Assembly: GCA_003644175.1 (NCBI GenBank)
Contig: QNBS01000048.1
Coordinates: 1-10,649, forward strand
Length of the DNA: 10,649 nucleotides
Direction: 5' to 3'
Origin: Planctomycetota bacterium
GTDB taxonomy: Bacteria; Planctomycetota; Phycisphaerae; Sedimentisphaerales; Anaerohalosphaeraceae
A model generated the notes under the pieces. It saw only the letters and a list, made by a program, of their open reading frames with translations. It was not told the origin of the DNA and searched no databases. The translations under genes were made by a program, and so were the position numbers. Positions 1 to 10,649 of this stretch are shown here, in pieces (the first letter of the stretch is position 1; every line of letters begins with the position of its first letter).

Positions 1-1188
1 ATGCCGCCTCTTATCTTCCTCTCTGGCCCTGCCAGGGCCTGAATGAATCTGGTTCTCGAAGATGACCGGGCCGCCCCATTTGCCTGTGACTACAATATCC
101 AGGTCGCCGTCCGCATCGAGGTCCACCACCGGGATGCTTAATCCGGAACCGATCCCTTTTCCATGAGTCAGGATATGTTTCTCCCATTTGGGCTGCTTTT
201 GCAGAGTGAGCTCGTACCAGTAGACCCCGAGCGGCTCGTTTGCACCGGGGTCCTTGCCGTTGTGGGCGTAAAACCGTTTCCCGGCAACGATGTCCAGGTC
301 GCCGTCAGCATCGAGATCGGCCAGGGTTATGCTGTGTACCTGCGACCACGATTTGTCTATGACATGCTGCTTCCAGGAAATCTCGGCGCCGTCGGCCTTC
401 TGTTCGTACCAGAACAGGCCATAGCCGTGCGCTTCGCTGGTGATGATATCGTTTCTGCCGTCGGCATTGACATCATACACCCAGATCTGGGGCGTGTGCT
501 TTGGCGTTTCCTTTCCAAGCGTGCCAAGTGCAATCGGATGCGCCTTCCATTTGCCCTTCCGGGGGTCTTTCGGCGCCTCGAACCATGTATCCGGACGGAT
601 GATGTCCGGCCGGCCGTCGCCATTGATATCGCCGCAGCCGGCACCCCAAATCGATTGTTCCGATGATACCTCGTGCCTGATCAGGCCCGCCTTGCCGCCC
701 GGTTCATACCAGTGCGTGTCTTTGGTTACCGGAAGTATCTCAAGAGCCTTGCCGTCGCCGTCGATATCCCAGAGATCGCCGCATTCATGGTTCCCGGCCT
801 TGTCGATGACTGTCATGGGCCACGGGGTCTCATCGCCCGTATTGCGGTACCAGTCGATTTGCTTTGCGAACCAGCAACAGGTCACCACGTCAAGTTTTCC
901 GTCACCGTCAACATCCATCGCGACATTCATGAAGTCGTCCCAGTACCCCACGCCCTTGTCGTCGACGTTTCCGCGCATGTCCCGGTACTTGTGGGCCTTC
1001 CAATCCGGGGCCTGGTACCAGTAGGGCCCGGCCACAATATCCAGCCTTCCGTCATTGTTGAAATCGCCGACTCCACAGGCCTCACTTCGAAACGTCCCGA
1101 CCCGCTTCATTTTGAATTCAAGCGAACCGGCGCCTGCCGTATTGCCAAGGACTGCAAGGGTCAGAATCACAGCAAACAATTGTCTCAT
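1..1188 (-). CDS. Secreted VCBS/FG-GAP repeat beta-propeller protein (3' end beyond window)
   Basis: An uninterrupted 396-codon reading frame starts at ATG 1188 and is still open at the left edge, so the C-terminus is missing. The start is supported by AGGAGA six nt upstream. Residues 1-20 form a signal peptide (hydrophobic core, then NTAGAG), so the product is exported. At least seven FG-GAP/VCBS-type calcium loops are visible, at about residues 41, 91, 140, 186, 238, 291 and 356. Examples are GDFNNDGRLDIV, MDVDGDGKLDVV and DLDADGDLDIV. Short strands with W/Y (YWYQ, WYRN, WYEP, FWYEQ, YWYEL) lie between them, which is the usual layout of a seven-bladed beta-propeller. The catalytic role is unknown. 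Such proteins are common in planctomycete secretomes and may bind carbohydrate. A rhamnogalacturonan-lyase-like propeller cannot be excluded. It is the last visible gene of the putative operon, 66 nt after the GH28 gene. Confidence 0.9.
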   Translation of the reverse strand, partial: MRQLFAVILTLAVLGNTAGAGSLEFKMKRVGTFRSEACGVGDFNNDGRLDIVAGPYWYQAPDWKAHKYRDMRGNVDDKGVGYWDDFMNVAMDVDGDGKLDVVTCCWFAKQIDWYRNTGDETPWPMTVIDKAGNHECGDLWDIDGDGKALEILPVTKDTHWYEPGGKAGLIRHEVSSEQSIWGAGCGDINGDGRPDIIRPDTWFEAPKDPRKGKWKAHPIALGTLGKETPKHTPQIWVYDVNADGRNDIITSEAHGYGLFWYEQKADGAEISWKQHVIDKSWSQVHSITLADLDADGDLDIVAGKRFYAHNGKDPGANEPLGVYWYELTLQKQPKWEKHILTHGKGIGSGLSIPVVDLDADGDLDIVVTGKWGGPVIFENQIHSGPGRAREEDKRRH

Positions 1189-1254
1189 CGCGTTTCTCCT
1201 CGGAGACATCAAGTTATATCCAAGGCTTGGGCGTATCATATAATTCGTAATTTC

Positions 1255-2493
1255 CTAATCCTGCAATTTGACATCGGTCATTGTCACGGCTTTGTCACTG
1301 TTCTTATTCCGAATGTTCTCAATGACCAGCCCACTGACGTTTTTGATTTTGAGTTCGCTATTTCCATGACACATAAAGTTCTTGAACGTCAAGCCCTGGA
1401 TAGGGCTTTCCTTCACTCCGCGTATGCTTCCCATGCCGCCGTCGTGAATTTCGATATTCCTGCAAGTGATGTTCCGCACCGTCGAAATCCCGGCGGGTCC
1501 CTTTATTAAATCGCCTTTGTTGCCGGGGTAGTCCATACGCATCAGGACGGCGTTCTTAATCCCAAAGGTCTTGATGTTCTCAACCGTAATATTCTCAACA
1601 AAGCCGCCGCGACCTTCGCGGGTCTTGACGTCAAAACCCCTGTGCATATTCTTGAAAACGCAATCCTTGACCACGATATTGCGGATGCCGCCGCTTATCT
1701 CGCTGCCAATGGCGACGCAGGCGTGTCCGCCAAGCATTGTACATTTGGTGATGGTGACGTTTTCGCAGGGAATCCCGATATCGACAGCCTGCTGATTTTT
1801 GCCGGACTTGATCGCGATGCAGTCATCTCCGGTTTCAAAAGTGCACTCGGTGATCAGGACGTTACTGCAACTGTCGGGATCGATTCCGTCGGCATTGGGG
1901 CCGGTTGTTCGTATGTCCAGCCCCTTTATTACAACGTTCGTGCAATAAAGCGGATGTATGGTCCAGCGTCCTGTGTTGGTGACTTTGATATTCTCGAGCA
2001 GCACATTTTTGCAGCGGATAAATTCGATTACGCGGGGACCTGTAGGCGGCCTGGACCCGCCAACCCCACTGCCGGCGACAACGCCTTTGCCGGTAATGGT
2101 TATGTCATGTACGTCTATGGCATTGATAAGGGATGCGTGGGACTTCTGCTCCGTACCCGCGAAACGCGAATCGATAACCGGGTAATCCCGGACTTCTTCA
2201 CTACTGCCCGTAAGCACAGCACCTTCTTCGATGACAAGCGTGGTATTGCTCTTAATAAATATGGCGCCGCTAAGATAGTTTCCCTTCGGAATCCGAACGA
2301 CACCGCCGCCGATTTCCCCGCATTTATCCAGAGCCTTCTGGATAGCCGCTGAATCTAACGTTTTACCGTCACCCTTGGCGCCGAAGTCGCGGACTGAAAA
2401 GACCACTGTCTTCCGGGCCCCTTGAGCGGATGTGGCAAATACCCCCGAAAGAATTGCCGTCGCCAAGATTGCTGTTATCCTGTTTTTGTTCAC
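1255..2493 (-). CDS. Secreted glycoside hydrolase family 28 (polygalacturonase-like)
   Basis: This 412-aa protein probably hydrolyses alpha-1,4-galacturonic or rhamnogalacturonic linkages of pectin outside the cytoplasm. Residues 1-26 are a signal peptide. The mature protein begins with the typical pectin-lyase-fold opening FSVRDFGAKGDGKT (32-45) and continues as a right-handed beta-helix. GH28 landmarks are NADGID (200-205), GDDCIAIKSG (222-231) and GGHACVAIGSE (255-265). D202, D223, D224 and H257 correspond to the catalytic and active-site residues. The C-terminal substrate-binding motif, normally RIK, reads DVK (288-290) and is followed by TREGRGG, so the usual arginine seems to be an aspartate. 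The start is GTG at 2493, chosen because AAGGAG sits six nt upstream and the signal peptide follows at once. Family membership is firm. Exo or endo action and exact substrate are not determined. It lies 77 nt downstream of the GH2-like gene and is probably co-transcribed with it. Confidence 0.93.
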   Translation of the reverse strand: MNKNRITAILATAILSGVFATSAQGARKTVVFSVRDFGAKGDGKTLDSAAIQKALDKCGEIGGGVVRIPKGNYLSGAIFIKSNTTLVIEEGAVLTGSSEEVRDYPVIDSRFAGTEQKSHASLINAIDVHDITITGKGVVAGSGVGGSRPPTGPRVIEFIRCKNVLLENIKVTNTGRWTIHPLYCTNVVIKGLDIRTTGPNADGIDPDSCSNVLITECTFETGDDCIAIKSGKNQQAVDIGIPCENVTITKCTMLGGHACVAIGSEISGGIRNIVVKDCVFKNMHRGFDVKTREGRGGFVENITVENIKTFGIKNAVLMRMDYPGNKGDLIKGPAGISTVRNITCRNIEIHDGGMGSIRGVKESPIQGLTFKNFMCHGNSELKIKNVSGLVIENIRNKNSDKAVTMTDVKLQD

Positions 2494-2499
2494 GTCTGT

Positions 2500-2505
2500 C
2501 TCCTT
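2500..2505 (-). promoter_or_regulatory. Ribosome binding site fixing the GTG start of the GH28 gene
   Basis: The minus strand reads AAGGAG, then a six-nt spacer, then GTG AAC AAA. No ATG in this frame lies between this site and the signal peptide, so the GTG at 2493-2491 is the likely start. Confidence 0.75.
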
Positions 2506-2570
2506 ATTATTACCGGGTCTATTTCTTTTTATGGACTATCCACCTTATTCTACGGTTTCCAGGCATCACA

Positions 2571-5500
2571 TTATTTTCTCGAGATGATACGCCCTTCCTC
2601 GGTTATCAGCAGTTCCATATCCTTGCCGTCGACGGAGCATTCGATCTTGAATACCACCGGTCCCCATTCGTATGAGTGAACCTTGTACCAGGGCTTGCAC
2701 TTGACCAGGTCCCAGTTGTCCTGTCCGGCAACCTCGGCGAACTCCACGGCGTACATTCCGTACTTGCTGCTTTTTTCGTACTTACCGATTCCACCCAGAG
2801 GTTTATCCCGCAAAGCTTTCCATTTCCTGGCATAGCCCAGGGTGCCGATCTGTACGCCTTTGACCACCATGGGCTCGTCGCGGTAATACCCCTTCAGCGG
2901 CATGATAAAGCGGCTCGGATCGGTTTTGTATATGGCAGGATAAAAGGCCTCGAACAGACTGTCCCTGTCTTTCTTATCGACACTTTCGTTGAATATCTCC
3001 CACATCACGATACTGGGACTGTTGCGGACCTGCCTGATATCTACAGTGTACTCCTCCACCGATTTATCCAGGGGCATCTTTGAACCATCCGGATTCTTGT
3101 TTTCGTTGGTCCAGTGCTTTCTCGTCCAGCCGGTGGGAACCCATATATACATAATACCGAGCTGGTCTCCGATTTCGGCGAAACGCGGGTCGCTGTATGC
3201 ACCGGAGGGCTCGTGTTTTCTTAGCGTATTTCCCTCCATCGCCCGGATCATCAGGATCCCCTTTACAATCCACGGCTTTGGGCTGCAGCGGTGCCACGTT
3301 GTGGACTTGTCAAACGGCGCCAGGAACTGCATCCACGTGGCGCCGTTTAGGACTTCCTCTTTTCCGTTGATGCGGAATGTGCCGCCTTCTTCGCTGATGG
3401 TGCGGATGCCGGTGGTCACGACATAATCATCCTGTGCTTTGCCGGACTCATCGAGGAGCGTTACAGCAACCTTGTACAGGTTCGGATGCTCGTAATCCCA
3501 GAGCAGCGGGTTGGGAACCGAAACGCTTTTCGAAATCGTCGCGGTCTTTGCGGCATCGAGTTTGACCGCAACGCGATCTACGACCGAAGCCGTTGCCGAT
3601 TCGGCGGGGCACCACGGGAACAAGCGGATGACAGCCTCTCCGTCGAATGCCGCCGCACTTTTATTGCTAACCTCCACCGTGACCTTTACTGTGGCGGGAT
3701 CGCCGAGTTTTTCCGTGTAAACAAATACATCGTCTACATAAACCGCACTTGTCAGATCCAGCGACATCCGTCCGGCGAACCAGCCGTAGTACAGGTCCTT
3801 CGATGTGTGGCCGTCGGCGGTGTAGAAGCCGTCGGCAACGTGATCTACTTTTACAGCGATCAGGTTGGCTCCCTTGTTAAGGAAACCGGTCACATCGAGC
3901 CGGACAGGCCGGCGATTCAGTTTGGCGACTTTTTTGCCATTGATAAATATCTCACCGCCCGGATCCAGCGCATCGACGTTCAGAAATGCCTGCTTAAATT
4001 GTCCGACATCAACCGTCCTGCGGAGATAAATATCCCGTCCCTTGTTTCTTTCACTGCCGACGACGATCGGAAGTTCGCCGTCGGTCGCCCATTTGCCGTC
4101 GTCATACGATACCGATTGCCATGAGTCCACGGCGGGCGTTACAGCGAAGTCTTCGTCGATAAAGGTCGATATATCGAAGATGCCGGTGCGAATATCTTCG
4201 GCCGGGTCGTACCCGGTTCCCCGGATATCGTCCACCACCAGGCCGGTTCCTCCGCTTATACTGAAGCTTGAGACCTCATGTACGGCGCCGACGGCGCCGG
4301 CGTAGATAGTTCTTTTGCCGTTGACATAGAGGCTGAACTGGTTGTATTGCAGGTCAACCTCAACTTTGAGTTCGCCGGCCGTTCCGGGTTTTATTCTCCC
4401 GGCATCGGCGCCTGCCGCCGTGACGTTGCCGGCGGCGTCGATGTTTATGGTGAGTATTGAAGTCCTGGAGCCTGCTAATGTGAACTTCGCCGTCTTGCCC
4501 GCAACGGGAATCACCTTCCACTGCAGGAAGAATCTCCAGTCCTGCGCATCGAACGTCCTGAGTATGTTGGCATTGTCCCGCGTAATGACCAACTGCTCAT
4601 CCTCGATGGATGCACCACCAGCTGACCAGCTCGCCAGGCGTTTGGTGTCCGCCGATGTTTCGCCGTTGCGATACGCCAGATGCTTCCATCCGCTGTTTAG
4701 GACCTGTCGCCTGCGTACTTCGGGAAGCGGCTGAGGTTTGATTTTTTTCAGTGCCTCCGCGACTTCGGCGTCGGTGACCACCTTCTTATCGAGATTCGGA
4801 TCCTTGAAGAAGCGGCGCGCCTGTTTTGCGTACTGGCTGAGAAATTCGACCCGCTGGTCCGTATTGAAGACAGATGTGCCGCCTATGAAATCGGTGTCGC
4901 CGTCGGCCGAGGCGTTGTTGCTGAAGTACTTCAACTCAAATGTACGTCCCAGGACCTTGCCTTTTTCAGTGACGACAAACGTTACGCCGTAATGGCCTTG
5001 GCTTTTTATGTCCGGCCGGAATGCTTCGAGCTCCACGATTGGCCGTCCGGAGGGGATCTTTACGCCGGTGAATTTTTTGGTCGAGGCGACCTTGCCCTGT
5101 TCGTTGATGCACTGAATCGTCAGGTCAACGACCCTCCTCTCGCCAAGGGCGATGATCACGGGCGTGATCTTGTCGCCGGGTCCGTAGACCACATCGACGC
5201 CCTTGCCGGCCGCATAGTATTTCTGCAGCGTGCTTTTGTAAGCGTAGAAGGCCAGCTTCATGTGATCGTTGAAATCGATCAACGGTTTCATATACGTACC
5301 GCTGTTGCCGCCGCCTCGCAGCGTGCACCAGACCATCGAGTCTATGTCGTGGTGTCTGGCCTGTTTCGCCGTGTTGTAGCCCGCCAGCGCCTGCCATGCC
5401 TGACTTTCGCGCCACTCATCGGCGGTAAGCTTGCGCCCGATGCTCCCTTCATCATAACTGTACTTGCTGCCGTACTCGGGTGAAATCTGGCCTCTGACGC

Positions 5501-5672
5501 TCGTGATTTTTGGACTGGTCCCCAGTTGGCGCACCAGTGCCCGCTTAACGACCCCAGTCATTTCGGTGTACACCGGATTTGCCTTCCTTGCCGTCGCGGT
5601 ACCACTGATCGCCAAGAACAGTATTCCTATTGTGCAAATAACAATAAAGACATAAGTTGTGCGATTCTGCAT
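2571..5672 (-). CDS. Secreted GH2-type glycosidase with apparently circularly permuted domains
   Basis: The 1033-aa protein starts at ATG 5672, with AAGGA five nt upstream. The frame is open for 52 more codons upstream, but these overlap the promoter and lack a signal peptide. Residues 1-28 form a signal peptide. The domain order is as follows. Residues 75-150 look like the end of a GH2 TIM barrel (MVWCTLRGGG, then MKPLIDF...KLAFYAYKS). Residues 158-250 look like a post-barrel beta domain, and 255-330 are a linker. Residues 345-490 are a beta-rich, laminin-G-like region. Residues 503-650 are a GH2 sugar-binding jelly roll (VSYDDGKW, YLRRTVDV). Residues 655-758 are the GH2 Ig-like domain (LLWDYEHPNLY, GIRTI). 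Residues 765-1004 are the barrel front, with GNTLRKHEP (814-822), WEIFNES (E896, acid/base) and YAVEFAE (E977, likely nucleophile, 81 residues later). A normal GH2 runs jelly roll, Ig, whole barrel, so the barrel end is at the wrong terminus here. Residues 1005-1033 resemble the end of a PepSY-like domain. The substrate is unknown; pectin-side-chain galactan is a guess from context. Confidence 0.82.
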   Translation of the reverse strand: MQNRTTYVFIVICTIGILFLAISGTATARKANPVYTEMTGVVKRALVRQLGTSPKITSVRGQISPEYGSKYSYDEGSIGRKLTADEWRESQAWQALAGYNTAKQARHHDIDSMVWCTLRGGGNSGTYMKPLIDFNDHMKLAFYAYKSTLQKYYAAGKGVDVVYGPGDKITPVIIALGERRVVDLTIQCINEQGKVASTKKFTGVKIPSGRPIVELEAFRPDIKSQGHYGVTFVVTEKGKVLGRTFELKYFSNNASADGDTDFIGGTSVFNTDQRVEFLSQYAKQARRFFKDPNLDKKVVTDAEVAEALKKIKPQPLPEVRRRQVLNSGWKHLAYRNGETSADTKRLASWSAGGASIEDEQLVITRDNANILRTFDAQDWRFFLQWKVIPVAGKTAKFTLAGSRTSILTINIDAAGNVTAAGADAGRIKPGTAGELKVEVDLQYNQFSLYVNGKRTIYAGAVGAVHEVSSFSISGGTGLVVDDIRGTGYDPAEDIRTGIFDISTFIDEDFAVTPAVDSWQSVSYDDGKWATDGELPIVVGSERNKGRDIYLRRTVDVGQFKQAFLNVDALDPGGEIFINGKKVAKLNRRPVRLDVTGFLNKGANLIAVKVDHVADGFYTADGHTSKDLYYGWFAGRMSLDLTSAVYVDDVFVYTEKLGDPATVKVTVEVSNKSAAAFDGEAVIRLFPWCPAESATASVVDRVAVKLDAAKTATISKSVSVPNPLLWDYEHPNLYKVAVTLLDESGKAQDDYVVTTGIRTISEEGGTFRINGKEEVLNGATWMQFLAPFDKSTTWHRCSPKPWIVKGILMIRAMEGNTLRKHEPSGAYSDPRFAEIGDQLGIMYIWVPTGWTRKHWTNENKNPDGSKMPLDKSVEEYTVDIRQVRNSPSIVMWEIFNESVDKKDRDSLFEAFYPAIYKTDPSRFIMPLKGYYRDEPMVVKGVQIGTLGYARKWKALRDKPLGGIGKYEKSSKYGMYAVEFAEVAGQDNWDLVKCKPWYKVHSYEWGPVVFKIECSVDGKDMELLITEEGRIISRK

Positions 5673-5708
5673 CTCGATCCTTTCTAATATGATTACATTC
5701 GATTTCGT

Positions 5709-5737
5709 ATTGTATCGGAAATTACACGCTTTTGCAA
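5709..5737 (-). promoter_or_regulatory. Sigma-70-like promoter of the GH2-GH28-VCBS operon
   Basis: On the minus strand, TTGCAA (5737-5732) and TACAAT (5714-5709) are separated by exactly 17 nt. The predicted transcript would begin near 5702, about 30 nt before the ATG at 5672. This leaves room for the AAGGA ribosome binding site and little else. The -10 box matches five of six consensus positions and the -35 box four of six. Confidence 0.6.
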
Positions 5738-5741
5738 CATA

Positions 5742-5755
5742 TACCCTTAAGGGTA
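5742..5755. promoter_or_regulatory. Perfect 14-bp palindrome TACCCTTAAGGGTA, probable operator
   Basis: TACCCTT is followed directly by its reverse complement AAGGGTA. The palindrome ends four bp upstream of the -35 box of the operon promoter, and its centre is about 46 bp upstream of the predicted transcript start. That is a typical place for an activator dimer. The regulator is not in the window. Perfect symmetry plus position is the only evidence. Confidence 0.45.
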
Positions 5756-5760
5756 GTAAA

Positions 5761-5778
5761 TTCCCGCGAGTAAAATGG
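5761..5778. repeat. Direct repeat copy 1 upstream of the GH2 operon promoter
   Basis: The plus strand reads TTCCCGCGAGTAAAATGG. It matches copy 2 at 15 of 18 positions with a period of exactly 40 bp, close to four helical turns. Placement upstream of the palindrome and promoter suggests paired regulator sites on one face of the DNA. Confidence 0.5.
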
Positions 5779-5800
5779 TAAGTATTGATTTGAAAAGAAG

Positions 5801-5818
5801 TTGCCGCGAATAAAACGG
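5801..5818. repeat. Direct repeat copy 2 upstream of the GH2 operon promoter
   Basis: The plus strand reads TTGCCGCGAATAAAACGG, which differs from copy 1 at three positions. It lies between the clpC stop codon and the operon promoter, in the 212-bp spacer that holds all the candidate regulatory sites. Confidence 0.5.
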
Positions 5819-5884
5819 GAACTTTCAATTGTGATCAGTATGCATAACTCCAGCCGGGGCGCGTTTTCATTATGCGGATTGGTA

Positions 5885-8398
5885 TTATTTGGCGTCGCTT
5901 TCGGCGTGGACTACTACGCTTTCGTCGTCTATCTTTTTGGCGGCTTTTACACCCTCGAATTTCAGGTGCTCTTCGTCGAGGACGGTGATCTTGATAACGC
6001 TTTTGCCCTTGAACTCGCCCTTTAGCATGCTCTCTGAAAGCGGGTCCTCGATGTAATGCTCGATCGCTCTTCGCAGCGGCCGGGCCCCGAACTCGGGATT
6101 GTAGCCCTTGTCAATGAGGAACTCCTTGGTTGCATCATTGACGTCGAGATGCAGGCCGTGCTCGACGAGCCGCTTGAATACCTTGTTGAGTTCGTATTCG
6201 ACAATGGTCGTCAAATTATCTCGTGTCAGCGCCTTGAAGACGATCTGTGCGTCAAGGCGGTTCAGGAACTCCGGCCGGAAATGCCGCTCGATTTCCTTGT
6301 TGAGCATCTCCTTCATTTTTTCGTAGTTGGCCTCTTCGGTTCGCTTGCCGAAACCGAAGCCGGCCTGGTTCTTGATGAGTTCTGCGCCGATGTTGCTGGT
6401 CATAATCAAAATCACGTTCCTGAAGTCGATATGGCGACCGAAGGAATCGGTGAGCCTGCCCTCTTCCATGATCTGCAACAGCATGTTGTGTACGTCGGAG
6501 TGGGCCTTTTCGATTTCATCGAGCAGCAATACCGAATAGGGTCTGCGACGAATACGCTCGGTGAGCTGGCCGCCCTCTTCATATCCCACATATCCGGGAG
6601 GCGCGCCGACCAGGCGGCTGACGTTGTGCTTTTCCATATACTCGCTCATGTCGATCTGAATCAGGGCATCGACGTTTCCGAACATGAACTCGGCGAGCGC
6701 CCGCGCCAGAAGGGTCTTGCCCACACCGCTGGGACCGATGAAGATGAAGCTGCCCATGGGGCGATTCGGGTCTTTGAGTCCGCTTCGACCGCGGCGCACC
6801 GCCTTGGCGACGGCATGAATCGCCTCATCCTGCGAGACGACCGTCTTGTGAAGCTCGGCCTCGAGCTCCAGAAGTCGCTGGGCTTCCTGCGTCTCCAGAC
6901 GTGTCAGGGGAACGCCGGTCATCTTGCTGACAACCTCGGCGATGACCTCCACATCGACCCTGCCGGCGACTTGGCCGGTTTTTTCCTGCCATTCCTGCTG
7001 CACACGCGACTTGTCGTCCAGAAGAGTCTGGGCCTCATCGCGCAATGCCGCAGCCTTCTCGTAGTCGGCGCTCTTGACGGCGTTGTCTTTTTCCTTCTGC
7101 AGGTCTGCAATCTTCGCCTCGATTTCGACTAAATCCGGCGGCGGCGTCATGTTTTTTAATCGAATACGGGCGCCTGCCTCGTCAATCACGTCAATCGCCT
7201 TGTCCGGAAGGCACCGCCCCGAAATATAGCGTGAAGAAAGTTCAACCGCCTGATACAGCGCTTCATCGGTAAACTTAACCTTGTGGTGCTGCTCGTAACG
7301 GTCGCGCAGGCCCTTGAGAATATCGACAGTCTCATCCTTCGACGGCGGCTCCACGGGAATCGTCTGGAATCGACGCTCCAGGGCCGCATCCTTCTCGATG
7401 TACTTTCGATACTCGTCATAGGTCGTCGCTCCGATACACTGAACCTCGCCGCGCGAAAGCGCAGGCTTTAGCACGTTCGAGGCGTCAATTGCGCCTTCTG
7501 CGCCGCCGGCGCCGACGAGCGTGTGGAGTTCATCGACAAACAAAACGACATTGCGTGCCCTGCGGACCTCGTTGATCACCGCTTTGATGCGCTCCTCGAA
7601 CTGGCCGCGATACTTTGTGCCGGCCACCATCATCGCCAGATCCAGAACGACAAGCCGTCGGTTCTTCAGTATCTCGGGCACTTCATGCTTGACTATCAGT
7701 TGAGCAAGCCCTTCCACAATCGCCGTTTTGCCCACACCGGCCTCGCCCAGCAGGACGGGATTGTTCTTGGTTCGCCGGCAAAGTATCTGAATCAGACGCT
7801 CGATTTCGTTTATCCTGCCGATGACCGGATCGAGTTCGTCCTTGGCGGCAAGTTCGGTGAGGTCTCTTCCGAAACTGTCCAGGGCGGGCGTCTTGCTCTT
7901 CTGTTTTTGACCCGCACCCGGTGTCATCTTCATCCCCATGCTCTGGTAGGCGTTGTCAACACCGGCGCCAAGCAGGTTGAGGACCTCCTGGCGAACATCT
8001 TCGAGCTTGAGACCGAGATTCATCAGAACCTGTGCGGCAATTCCCTCTGTCTCACGGAGGAGCCCCAGCAGGATGTGCTCGGTTCCCACATAATTGTGGT
8101 TCAACGCCCGGGCCTCTTCGATGGCATACTCGATGACCTTCTTGGCCTTGGGCGTCTGCGGCAGCTTGCCCATGGTTACCATGTCGGGCCCGCTCTTTAC
8201 GAGCTTTTCTATCTCGAGACGCAACTTCTTGATATCCACATCAAGGTTCTTGAGAACATTGGCGCCGACGCCGCTGCCCTCCTTAACCAGGCCCAGGAGA
8301 ATGTGCTCAGTCCCGATATATTCGTGATTGAATCGCTGGGCTTCCTGGTTCGCCAGCGCCATAACCTTCCTTGCCCGGTCAGTAAAACGTTCAAACAT
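5885..8398 (-). CDS. clpC: ATP-dependent Clp protease ATP-binding subunit ClpC
   Basis: This 837-aa cytoplasmic AAA+ unfoldase forms a hexamer that threads substrates into ClpP. It has the full ClpC layout and usual length. Two Clp N-domain repeats lie at 1-70 and 78-145 (EYIGTEHILLGLV and NYVGTEHILLGLL). AAA-1 has Walker A GEAGVGKT (218-225), Walker B VVLFVDE (284-290) and arginines in LERRF (340-344). A UVR-type middle region with coiled coil spans about 425-465. AAA-2 has Walker A GPSGVGKT (555-562), Walker B VLLLDEIEKAH (623-633), sensor-1 TSN (667-669) and sensor-2 GARPLRR (771-777). AGFGFGKR (679-686) fits the ClpP-docking loop, so it is a ClpC-type protease partner rather than a ClpB disaggregase. 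The ATG at 8398 begins the conserved MFERFTDRAR and is preceded by GGAAGAGG. No ctsR, mcsA or mcsB is adjacent, so it appears monocistronic. Confidence 0.97.
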   Translation of the reverse strand: MFERFTDRARKVMALANQEAQRFNHEYIGTEHILLGLVKEGSGVGANVLKNLDVDIKKLRLEIEKLVKSGPDMVTMGKLPQTPKAKKVIEYAIEEARALNHNYVGTEHILLGLLRETEGIAAQVLMNLGLKLEDVRQEVLNLLGAGVDNAYQSMGMKMTPGAGQKQKSKTPALDSFGRDLTELAAKDELDPVIGRINEIERLIQILCRRTKNNPVLLGEAGVGKTAIVEGLAQLIVKHEVPEILKNRRLVVLDLAMMVAGTKYRGQFEERIKAVINEVRRARNVVLFVDELHTLVGAGGAEGAIDASNVLKPALSRGEVQCIGATTYDEYRKYIEKDAALERRFQTIPVEPPSKDETVDILKGLRDRYEQHHKVKFTDEALYQAVELSSRYISGRCLPDKAIDVIDEAGARIRLKNMTPPPDLVEIEAKIADLQKEKDNAVKSADYEKAAALRDEAQTLLDDKSRVQQEWQEKTGQVAGRVDVEVIAEVVSKMTGVPLTRLETQEAQRLLELEAELHKTVVSQDEAIHAVAKAVRRGRSGLKDPNRPMGSFIFIGPSGVGKTLLARALAEFMFGNVDALIQIDMSEYMEKHNVSRLVGAPPGYVGYEEGGQLTERIRRRPYSVLLLDEIEKAHSDVHNMLLQIMEEGRLTDSFGRHIDFRNVILIMTSNIGAELIKNQAGFGFGKRTEEANYEKMKEMLNKEIERHFRPEFLNRLDAQIVFKALTRDNLTTIVEYELNKVFKRLVEHGLHLDVNDATKEFLIDKGYNPEFGARPLRRAIEHYIEDPLSESMLKGEFKGKSVIKITVLDEEHLKFEGVKAAKKIDDESVVVHAESDAK

Positions 8399-8476
8399 AA
8401 TTACCTCTTCCTTTTATTGCTTCCAAGAGTGTCTGCCTCAAAACGTCGGATTCTACCACACTTGCAGGAACTGTCA

Positions 8477-8558
8477 AACAATTGCGACCCGTTATCGGCC
8501 TCTCCGGGCGTCCCGGGACTGTTGGCCATAATTTATATGCCCCGGGTTGGCAATTGTT
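8477..8558. repeat. Widely spaced inverted repeat upstream of clpC
   Basis: AACAATTGC (8477-8485), followed by GACCC, is mirrored by GGGTTG and GCAATTGTT (8550-8558). That gives nine perfect pairs plus a partial four-base extension, with about 64 bp between the arms. It lies in the 273-bp spacer between clpC and the small coiled-coil gene, where the clpC promoter must be. It could be a pair of operator half-sites. I see no clear CIRCE or CtsR heptad repeat, and no convincing -35/-10 pair. Confidence 0.3.
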
Positions 8559-8637
8559 CGCTCATTGACCACAGTCTTTTTCCCTGCAGCGTCAGAGCAA
8601 TTTTCCACTTGTACTATCGACATAATCGGCCCCCGAC

Positions 8638-8656
8638 TTTGGCGTGACACGCCAAA
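8638..8656. repeat. Short perfect hairpin downstream of the coiled-coil gene
   Basis: TTTGGCGT, loop GAC, ACGCCAAA form an 8-bp stem with a three-base loop, 16 bp past the stop codon of the 85-aa gene. It may end that transcript. It is not a textbook terminator, because on the coding (minus) strand the T run comes before the stem rather than after it. Confidence 0.35.
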
Positions 8657-8671
8657 AAACACAATCAAAGG

Positions 8672-8929
8672 CTATTTTCCGTCTTCCAGCATCTTCTTGA
8701 GATAGGTGTTTTCTCGACGTGTAGCCTCCAGATCAAACATAATGTATTTGATGCTCACCCGAAGGTAATCCAGCGACTCCTGGAGGTTATGGACGCTTTT
8801 CTTGATTTGTTTCTGTGTTTCCTGTGTTTTTTTGGCTAACAGCAGCAGCTTCTTCTGCTGAGAGTTCGGCATGGCCCCGATTTCACTGACCAATTCGTAT
8901 AGTTTCTTCTCAAAGAATGCCTCGTTCAT
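8672..8929 (-). CDS. Small coiled-coil hypothetical protein
   Basis: This 85-aa, highly charged cytoplasmic protein has no signal peptide or membrane segment. The start ATG at 8929 follows AGAGGG with a normal spacing. The sequence is helical throughout. Residues 1-18 (AFFEKKLYELVSEIG) form one amphipathic helix. Residues 23-65 are rich in K, Q, E and L with heptad-like spacing (QQKKLLLLAKKTQETQKQ, then LQESLDYLRVSIKYIMFDLEA). A charged tail RRENTYLKKMLED follows. It reads like a short dimeric coiled-coil of the kind kept as a conserved hypothetical in planctomycetes, but I cannot name it. It lies 273 bp upstream of clpC on the same strand, too far for a tight operon. The clean codon structure and ribosome binding site support a real gene. 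Confidence 0.72.
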   Translation of the reverse strand: MNEAFFEKKLYELVSEIGAMPNSQQKKLLLLAKKTQETQKQIKKSVHNLQESLDYLRVSIKYIMFDLEATRRENTYLKKMLEDGK

Positions 8930-9351
8930 CGTTTACCCTCTTTCCTTTTCCCCTTGGTGCTCGTTCTTATCTCTATACTGGAACCATCCAAATACACCAG
9001 CTTTTAAGAGCAATGACTGTACCAGTTGCCCTTCCCGGCGTCAAAACACCCCCCAAACAGGCCAAAAACGGCCATTCGCCCGCGGATTGAACTCTAAACG
9101 CACCTGCACCCGATAATAAACGTTGTATTGATTAAACAACCGCGTTTCGCATTTGCAACACACACCCAACACAAAACCCCACACACAAGAACATAAACAC
9201 CATCCAAATCTATACTTACGCAGCATGTTGCCCCAAATCAACAGCCAACCCCTAAGACCGCAAAAAACTCAGACAAAACTCTTCCGTCATTGCTCTTGTC
9301 ACAATATAATGAAATTGATATGTGAACAATTCGCAAAATATAGAGATACTT
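8930..9351. other. Gene-free spacer with strong strand asymmetry
   Basis: This 422-bp divergent spacer lies between the coiled-coil gene (leftward) and the methyltransferase gene (rightward). It must hold both promoters. From about 9030 to 9290 the plus strand is rich in A and C and very poor in G, unlike the flanking genes. I see no convincing gene, tRNA, or terminator here. Short frames on either strand have low-complexity, cysteine- and tryptophan-rich translations and no ribosome binding site. Only weak small inverted repeats are visible, such as GGCC-aaaaac-GGCC near 9060. Confidence 0.6.
9296..9324 (+). promoter_or_regulatory. Candidate promoter of the methyltransferase gene
   Basis: TTGTCA (9296-9301) and TATGTG (9319-9324) are 17 nt apart. 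A perfect TATAAT at 9305-9310 lies between them but has only a poor -35 (TTCCGT, 9282-9287). Either choice puts the transcript start within about 20-35 nt of the ATG at 9352, which supports that start codon. Confidence 0.35.
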
Positions 9352-10649
9352 ATGCTGCAACGTGCAACGGCAAAGCCCAAAAGGTTCATAAAGGTCACAG
9401 CAGGGAATCTGCGTAATAACCATGTCTACATCACAGGACACCATGATTTTTTCCCAAAAGACTGCTTTGGAACCTCCAATATGAAGTCGGGTGTGGGTAA
9501 GCCTCTCATCATTGAACTTGACGGGCTAAACAAAAGCATCCGGACCGATATACCGGTAGACGCCAAAACAGGAAGGCCCCGCCGCCAATTTCGCACCAGA
9601 TCATGGGTCGCCGAATTCTTCGCGGCGCACCGGATCATACCCGGAGATGTGCTCTCTCTTGAGCGACTGGCGCCAAGAGCTTATCGCCTCGGCCTTGCTG
9701 AGCGCACAACTTCCACTTTGCAACAGACTTTTCTTGAGTTTTTTGCTGGAATCGGACTCGTCCGACTGGGTCTTGAAAAAGCGGGCTGGCGATTACTCTA
9801 TGCAAATGATATCGACCCCCAAAAACAGCAGATGTATTCTGCCCATTTCCGTGATGCCGATGACCACTTCGATTTGGCGGACATACATCGCGTCGATCCC
9901 TTCACCATCCCGCGTGCAACGCTCGCAACCGCTTCATTTCCCTGCACCGATTTGTCCTTGGCCGGCGAGAGAAAGGGCCTCAAAGGCCGACAGTCCTCAG
10001 CTTTTTTTGGCTTTATTGAAGTTCTTACGGAAATGGGGGATGTCCGCCCGCCTTTGATTCTTATTGAGAATGTTTTGGGGTTCTTAACTTCACGTAATGG
10101 CGCAGATTTTCGACAAGCCATGCTCGCGTTAAACAAACTTGGGTACAGCGTAGATTCTTTTATTCTCGACGCAAAGTGGTTTGTGCCACAGAGCCGCCCG
10201 AGGCTCTTTGTAGTCGCTTCTTTGTTTGAGAAACCCTGTTCCAAATGCTCACCGGGCCTGCTCTCTCCTTCCCGACTGCGCCCATCCTTACTTTCAAGTT
10301 ATATCGTAGCCCATCCCGACATTCAGTGGTCCCTGTTTAATCTTCCCGATCCGCCAGAAAAGGCAAATTACTCTCTCGAAGACATCTTAGAAGACTTGCA
10401 CGAGGCAGCCCCGCAGTGGTGGAGCAAAGAACGTGCTGATTATCTCTATAACCAGATGAGCCCCAGACATCGTGAGGTCGCTGATGCCTGGATAAACCAG
10501 AAGAAGTGGTCATATGGAACAGTTTTCAGAAGAGTAAGACGTCAACCCGACGGTCATAAACGATCAATGGCTGAACTGCGATCTGATGGCGTTGCCGGCT
10601 GTCTTCGGACTCCGAAAGGCGGCAGTGGTCGACAGATCCTTTTCAAGGC
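9352..10649 (+). CDS. DNA (cytosine-5) methyltransferase with N-terminal B3-like domain (3' end beyond window)
   Basis: The frame gives 432 full codons from ATG 9352 and is open at the right edge. Residues 125-432 are a C5-cytosine methyltransferase that uses S-adenosylmethionine. Motif I is FFAGIGLVRLG (130-140) and motif II is YANDID (150-155). Motif IV is FPCTDLSLAG with catalytic C198. Motif VI is ENV (239-241) and motif VIII is QSRPRLFVVA (280-289). CLRTPKGGSGRQ near the edge fits the late conserved region, so the final motifs lie outside the window. Residues about 20-115 (VYITGHHDFFP, RSWVAEFF, IIPGDVLSLERL, YRLGL) resemble bacterial B3-like DNA-binding domains linked to restriction systems. 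That assignment is inference. GTG 9322 is an alternative start but has no Shine-Dalgarno. ATG 9352 has a weak GAGA. The gene is probably part of a restriction-modification or defence locus. A maintenance or solitary methyltransferase is the alternative. Confidence 0.88.
   Translation, partial: MLQRATAKPKRFIKVTAGNLRNNHVYITGHHDFFPKDCFGTSNMKSGVGKPLIIELDGLNKSIRTDIPVDAKTGRPRRQFRTRSWVAEFFAAHRIIPGDVLSLERLAPRAYRLGLAERTTSTLQQTFLEFFAGIGLVRLGLEKAGWRLLYANDIDPQKQQMYSAHFRDADDHFDLADIHRVDPFTIPRATLATASFPCTDLSLAGERKGLKGRQSSAFFGFIEVLTEMGDVRPPLILIENVLGFLTSRNGADFRQAMLALNKLGYSVDSFILDAKWFVPQSRPRLFVVASLFEKPCSKCSPGLLSPSRLRPSLLSSYIVAHPDIQWSLFNLPDPPEKANYSLEDILEDLHEAAPQWWSKERADYLYNQMSPRHREVADAWINQKKWSYGTVFRRVRRQPDGHKRSMAELRSDGVAGCLRTPKGGSGRQILFK

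Follow-up and report, generated by a model that had tools for sequence, protein, structure and literature searches.

The question raised by one gene of a Planctomycetota bacterium (family Anaerohalosphaeraceae; assembly GCA_003644175.1, contig QNBS01000048.1) is whether a glycoside hydrolase of family 2 (GH2) can carry its domains in circularly permuted order, with the permutation running through the catalytic barrel itself. The window analysed here is the whole stretch of 10,649 nucleotides at positions 1 to 10,649 of that contig; the gene in question, an open reading frame at 2571-5672 on the minus strand, encodes a protein of 1033 amino acids (P0001). A first-pass annotation, made from the sequence alone, had proposed such a permutation with the break in the beta-7/alpha-7 loop. 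The analysis that followed indicates that a single circular permutation in nature very probably gave rise to P0001, a secreted GH2 beta-glycosidase with the apparent halves of a split PepSY-like domain at its ends and a barrel that would still close.

Order of the GH2 modules in P0001 and its homologues

P0001 passes the curated Pfam cut-offs for the N-terminal, immunoglobulin-like (Ig) and barrel domains of GH2, all of them in its C-terminal half: GH2_N at residues 560-627 (28.5 bits, cut-off 28), the Ig domain at 644-757 (60.3 bits, cut-off 23) and GH2_C at 764-924 (25.8 bits, cut-off 21), the last of which stops at position 159 of a profile of 302. No NCBIfam equivalog matches above its cut-off, the best score being 89.9 bits where 900 is required. 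GH2 enzymes are retaining beta-glycosidases, and the beta-glucuronidases, beta-galacturonidases and beta-galactosidases among them (6ncx, 6ncz, LacZ) share with P0001 a jelly roll, an Ig domain, a (beta/alpha)8 barrel and catalytic glutamates at strands beta4 and beta7, which in P0001 are E896 (in an N-E motif, within FNE) and the nucleophile E977 (within VEFAE); the best sequence match to a GH2 enzyme of the PDB spans residues 544-921. P0001 differs from these enzymes in that the colinear order of jelly roll, Ig domain and whole barrel is broken, the barrel end and the post-barrel domain being N-terminal. Those motifs of the first-pass annotation that were checked stand where it had placed them: SIGRKLTADEWRESQAW at residues 77-93, MVWCTLRGGG at 113-122, KLAFYAYKS at 139-147 and the two glutamates.

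Domain order was compared among 224 distinct listed homologues, obtained from three protein searches (the best 120 of 308 matches, the best 120 of 244, and 75 of 75) of a database clustered at 90% identity, with four modules of P0001 as BLAST queries (residues 70-240, 250-500, 501-758 and 764-1004). Module 70-240 comes first in 24 homologues, each representing a cluster, and lies behind the barrel front in 198; the other two, which lack it, are truncated proteins of 746 and 775 amino acids. One match to this back module was found in each of the 222 proteins that have it and two copies in none, so the second copy of the barrel end that would have told against the first-pass annotation does not occur among them. 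A completeness filter applied to the first 194 homologues was passed by 18 of the 24 permuted proteins, the other six clusters being incomplete, and by 166 of 168 proteins of usual order. In the permuted proteins each segment is present once, in cyclically shifted order, with the old termini joined and the new termini at one site.

The cut is clean. Matched separately, as the first-pass annotation had advised, the equivalent of residues 70-237 abuts the piece ending at about residue 1003 within three residues in 196 of the 198 usual-order proteins, and the boundary first proposed (1004 and about 75) was right to within a few residues. At the junction of the old termini, 9-26 residues separate the aligned pieces in 17 of the 18 complete permuted proteins, and 51 in P0025. 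Residues 72-240 are thereby confirmed as the end of the GH2 barrel and the beta-sandwich that follows it, placed ahead of the parts that normally precede them.

The remaining two usual-order proteins, P0023 and P0027, have 46 residues between the pieces. Judged by eye, these seem to repeat part of the alpha7 region, and they stand precisely where the permuted group is cut. The homologue in genome G251 has about 49 residues at the same site; the locus listed for these insertions is L027:3892-4038. An apparent extension of the L007 protein to residue 135 was rejected as a duplicate; it is an unrelated N-terminal domain. Another unpermuted homologue, P0137 (L033:8391-12605), carries a fused N-terminal domain of 440 residues that is beta-propeller-like by eye.

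The 198 listed unpermuted proteins (P0023, P0024, P0027, P0040 and 194 others) have the same modules as the permuted group in the usual order, at 21-57% identity (medians 34-44%), and the names of their sources include Bacteroidota, Paenibacillus, Latescibacteria and Sedimentisphaerales. One of them is encoded in the same genome as the permuted gene.

The place of the break within the barrel was examined in structure models. A profile of 60 unpermuted rows, compared with PDB sequences, reached the barrel front only (ending at position 636-726 of 983 in the best 60 of 122 rows), and the barrel end was therefore placed by structure. An AlphaFold model of an unpermuted sister (predicted local distance difference test, pLDDT, 90.8) can be aligned with GH2 chains along their entire length, its counterpart of residues 70-152 forming the barrel end, and thus supports a single predicted GH2 barrel made of the equivalents of 764-1003 and 70-152. 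Its top Foldseek rows are beta-mannosidases and the 50 rows listed by VIA-align are glucuronidases and galacturonidases, from neither of which a specificity was drawn. Together with the usual-order homologues and the congruent trees described below, this model favours the beta-7/alpha-7 loop named by the first-pass annotation. In the permuted protein, residues 764-1003 and 72-152 would accordingly close a normal barrel. Its own AlphaFold 2 model (24 rows) is of too low a quality to show such closure either way, having a mean pLDDT of 59.8, a predicted template modelling (TM) score of 0.34 and values below 50 at residues 64-138 and 937-1005. Foldseek gave it weak GH2 matches (TM 0.20-0.35 in the 50 rows listed), and this model was used solely for the secondary structure of the ends.

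Integrity and ancestry of the permuted gene

Both catalytic glutamates, E896 and E977, are kept in all 18 complete permuted proteins counted, and the nucleophile in 184 of 184 proteins of either order. At the acid/base column, histidine (motif N-H-P) stands in 157 of 166 unpermuted relatives, among them the one encoded in the same genome (locus L029:1469-4414), in contrast to glutamate in 18 of 18 permuted proteins and nine unpermuted ones. The four closest unpermuted relatives keep the glutamate.

A search of 59 genomes, that of P0001 and those of relatives, found the gene complete and permuted in G000, in G001 (same genus, 87%) and in G022 (another genus of the family, 84%); the records JAGHBX010000548 and QNBT01000201 are the contigs of the G001 and G022 copies. 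The ratio of nonsynonymous to synonymous substitution rates (dN/dS), taken for the three pairs over residues 30-1033, comes to 0.26, 0.16 and 0.13; when six segments are considered singly it stays under 0.45 in all of them. When 397 genomes of the class were drawn, four matched at E <= 1e-60 (its own, G240, G251 and G047). The copies of G251 and G047 have the usual order, and that of G240 (JADFMM010000031; L026:8001-9374) passes from residues 1-30 directly to 608-1033 with a change of frame; it is either a broken copy or an assembly join.

Trees of the front and back pieces (front by quick search, back by careful search) were built from 62 rows, 18 permuted and 44 of the 166 unpermuted. In the front tree the permuted rows form one clade (Shimodaira-Hasegawa approximate likelihood ratio test 99) inside a group of 22 with P0023, P0024, P0027 and P0040 (100), and in the back tree they again form one clade (99/95) inside the same group of 22 (96/87). 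The branching within that group differs slightly between the trees, with weak support.

These results bear on two other accounts of the gene. The metagenome-assembled genome (MAG) to which the window contributes one contig is fragmented (405 contigs, 77% complete), and the relative in G240 is visibly broken, as might be expected if P0001 were an assembly artefact or the product of a dead gene. Misassembly is excluded, because a MAG of the same genus and a MAG of another genus hold the complete gene under purifying selection; 24 clusters have the same order, and the catalytic residues kept in 18 of 18 proteins, like the low dN/dS (0.13-0.26), are not those of a dead gene, so that the probability left to this account is negligible. 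At least one other homologue in the genome provides the material for a fusion of parts of two different GH2 genes, in which another enzyme would have supplied residues 72-240 and the barrel end within them would be decorative. Such a fusion is highly improbable: the permuted proteins take the same position beside the same relatives in both trees, which argues for one permutation of one gene, and nothing is missing or doubled, the back module being single in all listed homologues except the two truncated ones. Both pieces of the permuted gene have a shared history.

The PepSY-like ends and the origin of the permutation

The permuted proteins have a common extension at each end, and the two extensions resemble complementary halves of one small domain. 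In the AlphaFold 2 model of P0001 the N-terminal end is helix-strand and the C-terminal end strand-strand (pLDDT by block 57-79 at residues 31-60 and 54-80 at 1001-1030), together the helix-strand-strand-strand plan of PepSY and PepSY_like (PF03413, PF11396). A profile of the termini joined in this order (about residues 22-71 followed by 1003-1033; 12 of 17 joined pairs) was searched against the 59 genomes, with E-values that refer to one genome. It matched uninterrupted domains across the join in G047:C205 four times (1.9e-6, 3.0e-6, 1.3e-5 and 0.0029) and in G050:C30 (3.6e-5), and further in G006:C219 (0.002), G048:C132 (0.009) and G058:C185 (0.02). Three of the spanning proteins were scanned with Pfam: the G047 protein matches PepSY (7.8e-13), the G058 protein matches PepSY_like (5.9e-12), and the G050 protein has no match to either family at E 0.1. 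On the single-copy protein L042 the joined profile scores 20.9 bits in one piece, whereas a control with the halves in swapped order scores 6.9 and 8.4 bits in two; the joined order also scores better on L041 (1.9e-19 against 1.4e-14) and L048 (6.2e-10 against 3.4e-8).

The relation holds in the other direction. A reverse profile of nine uninterrupted copies from four proteins, run on the 224 listed homologues, matched 13 at E<1, namely 12 permuted proteins and P0040. All 12 permuted proteins show the C-terminal half at their C-terminus or close to it (E 2.6e-6 in P0001), and the only unpermuted match is the C-terminal tail of P0040 (profile positions 3-54 of 65). Both halves are thus related to PepSY domains that are uninterrupted, the N-terminal half being weak when taken alone. 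The P0001 domain differs from the Pfam families in being interrupted by about 930 residues and in scoring below their cut-offs, for which reason it is called PepSY-like and not a member of PF03413 or PF11396. The GH2 enzyme of the permuted group very probably sits inside this domain.

The opposing view, that the permutation is true and the extensions are unrelated add-ons, draws on several observations that weigh against a split domain. Neither end reaches a Pfam cut-off, the best of six joined pairs scoring 14.1 bits against 28.3, and the N-terminal half was weak in the reverse search (i-E 0.63-1.9), appearing at the N-terminus in four of the 12 permuted matches. Half of the permuted proteins (12 of 24) have no reverse-profile match; eight of these have the C-terminal tail and four lack it. 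Some matches of the joined profile cover one half only, with similar E-values (6.1e-5 in G003, 3.2e-4 in G041), and L042 itself has no Pfam PepSY match at E 0.1. The swapped control was better on L034 (6e-4 against 0.065) and about equal on L047; both are multi-copy proteins, in which tandem copies would allow such matches. The P0040 tail is linked to the termini by a modest hhalign match (E 1.8e-4, probability 48%), and the joined hidden Markov model misses that tail. Unrelated add-ons are nevertheless improbable, in view of the uninterrupted domains matched end to end in several proteins, the preference for the joined order on L042, L041 and L048, the confinement of reverse-profile matches at E<1 to permuted proteins and the P0040 tail, and the complementary secondary structure predicted for the two ends.

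In the permuted proteins the ancestral C-terminus, at the end of the post-barrel beta-sandwich, runs into what was the N-terminus of the mature ancestral protein, and the new termini opened in the beta-7/alpha-7 loop, 26 residues past the nucleophile. The helix-strand and strand-strand halves at these termini indicate an insertion of the permuted enzyme into the first hairpin of a single PepSY-like domain, whose pairing would keep the edges of the cut barrel together. One possible course, put forward tentatively, is that a GH2 coding unit, circular or in tandem, entered the gene of a secreted PepSY-like protein at the beta1-beta2 hairpin, so that permutation and insertion occurred together; one step would have provided a new signal peptide, neighbouring new termini in a loop of the catalytic face, a clasp to keep the cut barrel closed and maybe a lid or regulator by the active site. 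Insertion into a PepSY-like gene seems simpler than the reverse because the order is N-terminal half, barrel end, barrel front and C-terminal half, and a PepSY domain inserted into a barrel loop and then cut would leave the opposite order. The alternative course is a tandem duplication of the GH2 gene with deletion of both outer parts and later acquisition of the ends, for which the odds are likewise somewhat short of even. Duplication/deletion is, with fusion/fission, among the proposed routes of permutation (PMC3281007, accessible text), and the 46-residue insertion of the sisters P0023 and P0027 at the permutation site is duplication-like by eye. Against it, no intermediate with a copy at both ends occurs among the 224 listed homologues (double-length proteins lie beyond the length limits of the search), no remnant of a signal peptide is visible by eye at the old junction of the permuted proteins, and duplication/deletion alone leaves complementary halves of another domain at the new ends unexplained. 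The first-pass annotation had suggested deletion between tandem GH2 genes; insertion into a PepSY-like gene may explain the ends better than such plain deletion, and what survives of the suggestion is that tandem duplication may have supplied the inserted unit.

Several other observations concern PepSY-like domains. The unpermuted sister P0040 has an apparently complete one as a C-terminal tail (residues 1001-1056), modelled by AlphaFold 2 as helix-strand-strand-strand. One to three are present in each of the small Planctomycetota proteins L041, L042, L047 and L048; L041, L047 and L048 combine them with acidic Asp/Glu tracts, and in L042, whose N-terminal domain has no Pfam PepSY match, the PepSY-like domain is joined to a domain like 3-keto-disaccharide hydrolase. 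The joined-termini profile found no convincing relative in the PDB (best E 0.93, a ribosomal protein). PF11396 had no match in the genome of P0001; of 149 genomes of the phylum, four had a match at E<=0.001 and none had one over the cut-off; as none of 14 controls matched in either search, these results say little.

Predicted function, precedents and gene neighbourhood

The features of the gene are collected in Table 1. In the region of residues 331-490, PF22585 (a sialidase-like carbohydrate-binding module) matches the relatives P0040 and P0025 below its cut-off.

Table 1. Segments of the permuted GH2 protein P0001 and their positions in the window
Feature	Residues	Positions	Strand	Basis
Putative signal peptide (new; that of the unpermuted form is lost)	1-29	5586..5672	-	Hydrophobic N-terminus by eye
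PepSY-like domain, putative N-terminal half (helix and strand)	33-71	5460..5576	-	Joined-termini profile; AlphaFold 2 helix 40-50, strand 55-63; weak alone
GH2 barrel end (alpha7, beta8, alpha8)	72-152	5217..5459	-	Homologous to the segment after the barrel front in 198 unpermuted proteins; sister model
Beta-sandwich that trails the barrel in unpermuted relatives	153-240	4953..5216	-	Module BLAST; sister-model strands at 915-980
Old mature N-terminus and helical region, joined directly to the old C-terminus	241-330	4683..4952	-	Matches the first residues after the signal peptide of unpermuted relatives
Beta-sandwich, probably concanavalin-like	331-490	4203..4682	-	Colinear with unpermuted relatives
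GH2 sugar-binding jelly roll	497-643	3744..4184	-	PF02837
GH2 Ig-like domain	644-757	3402..3743	-	PF00703
Barrel front (beta1 to beta7) with acid/base E896 and nucleophile E977	764-1003	2664..3383	-	PF02836; conservation
PepSY-like domain, putative C-terminal half (two strands)	1004-1033	2574..2663	-	PepSY profile match; AlphaFold 2 strands 1006-1014, 1017-1024

A retaining beta-glycosidase is expected because both catalytic glutamates are kept in all 18 permuted proteins. The permuted gene adjoins a GH28 gene in the window, and in G001 it is flanked by a GH28 gene on one side and a GH106 rhamnosidase gene on the other; a pectate-lyase-like gene (under the Pfam cut-off) is nearby. From residues and neighbours, P0001 is predicted to be a secreted retaining exo-beta-glycosidase for pectin-derived side chains. 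In a TIM barrel the beta-alpha loops make up the catalytic face; attached on such a loop, the PepSY-like domain would lie at that face.

It is, to our knowledge, rare for a natural circular permutation to pass through a catalytic TIM barrel. The first-pass annotation had known of no natural permuted GH2 of this kind, and none was found in literature searches that left out most subscription papers; the nearest precedent for the circularly permuted GH2 is GH70 relative to GH13, in another clan (GH-H). According to the accessible text of PMC11046441, the GH70 barrel is circularly permuted relative to that of GH13, which is likewise a natural permutation that falls inside a catalytic (beta/alpha)8 barrel and leaves the catalytic residues conserved; it differs in that the GH70 barrel begins at alpha3 and that no split domain is described there at the GH70 termini. 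The GH3 enzyme GlyA1 also has a naturally permuted domain order, with chain ends that pair as a two-stranded sheet, but as outlined in that source it reorders whole domains and leaves the barrel uncut (PMC5104943). Permuted fluorescent proteins have been engineered into maltodextrin-binding protein (PMC3265398, in the text available), an artificial case of a permuted domain in a host domain, of which the split PepSY-like domain suggests a natural counterpart; such a domain would also explain how new termini in the barrel are tolerated. The permuted group indicates how nature can rearrange a large folded enzyme and retain it. As both forms occur in one genome and close unpermuted relatives exist, the origin and cost of the permutation are directly testable.

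Elsewhere in the window, an FG-GAP repeat protein and the polygalacturonase-like GH28 protein are encoded downstream on the same strand (1-2493, minus). A Clp-type AAA+ protein is encoded upstream (5885-8398, minus), and a C5 cytosine DNA methyltransferase gene runs off the window (9322-10647, plus).

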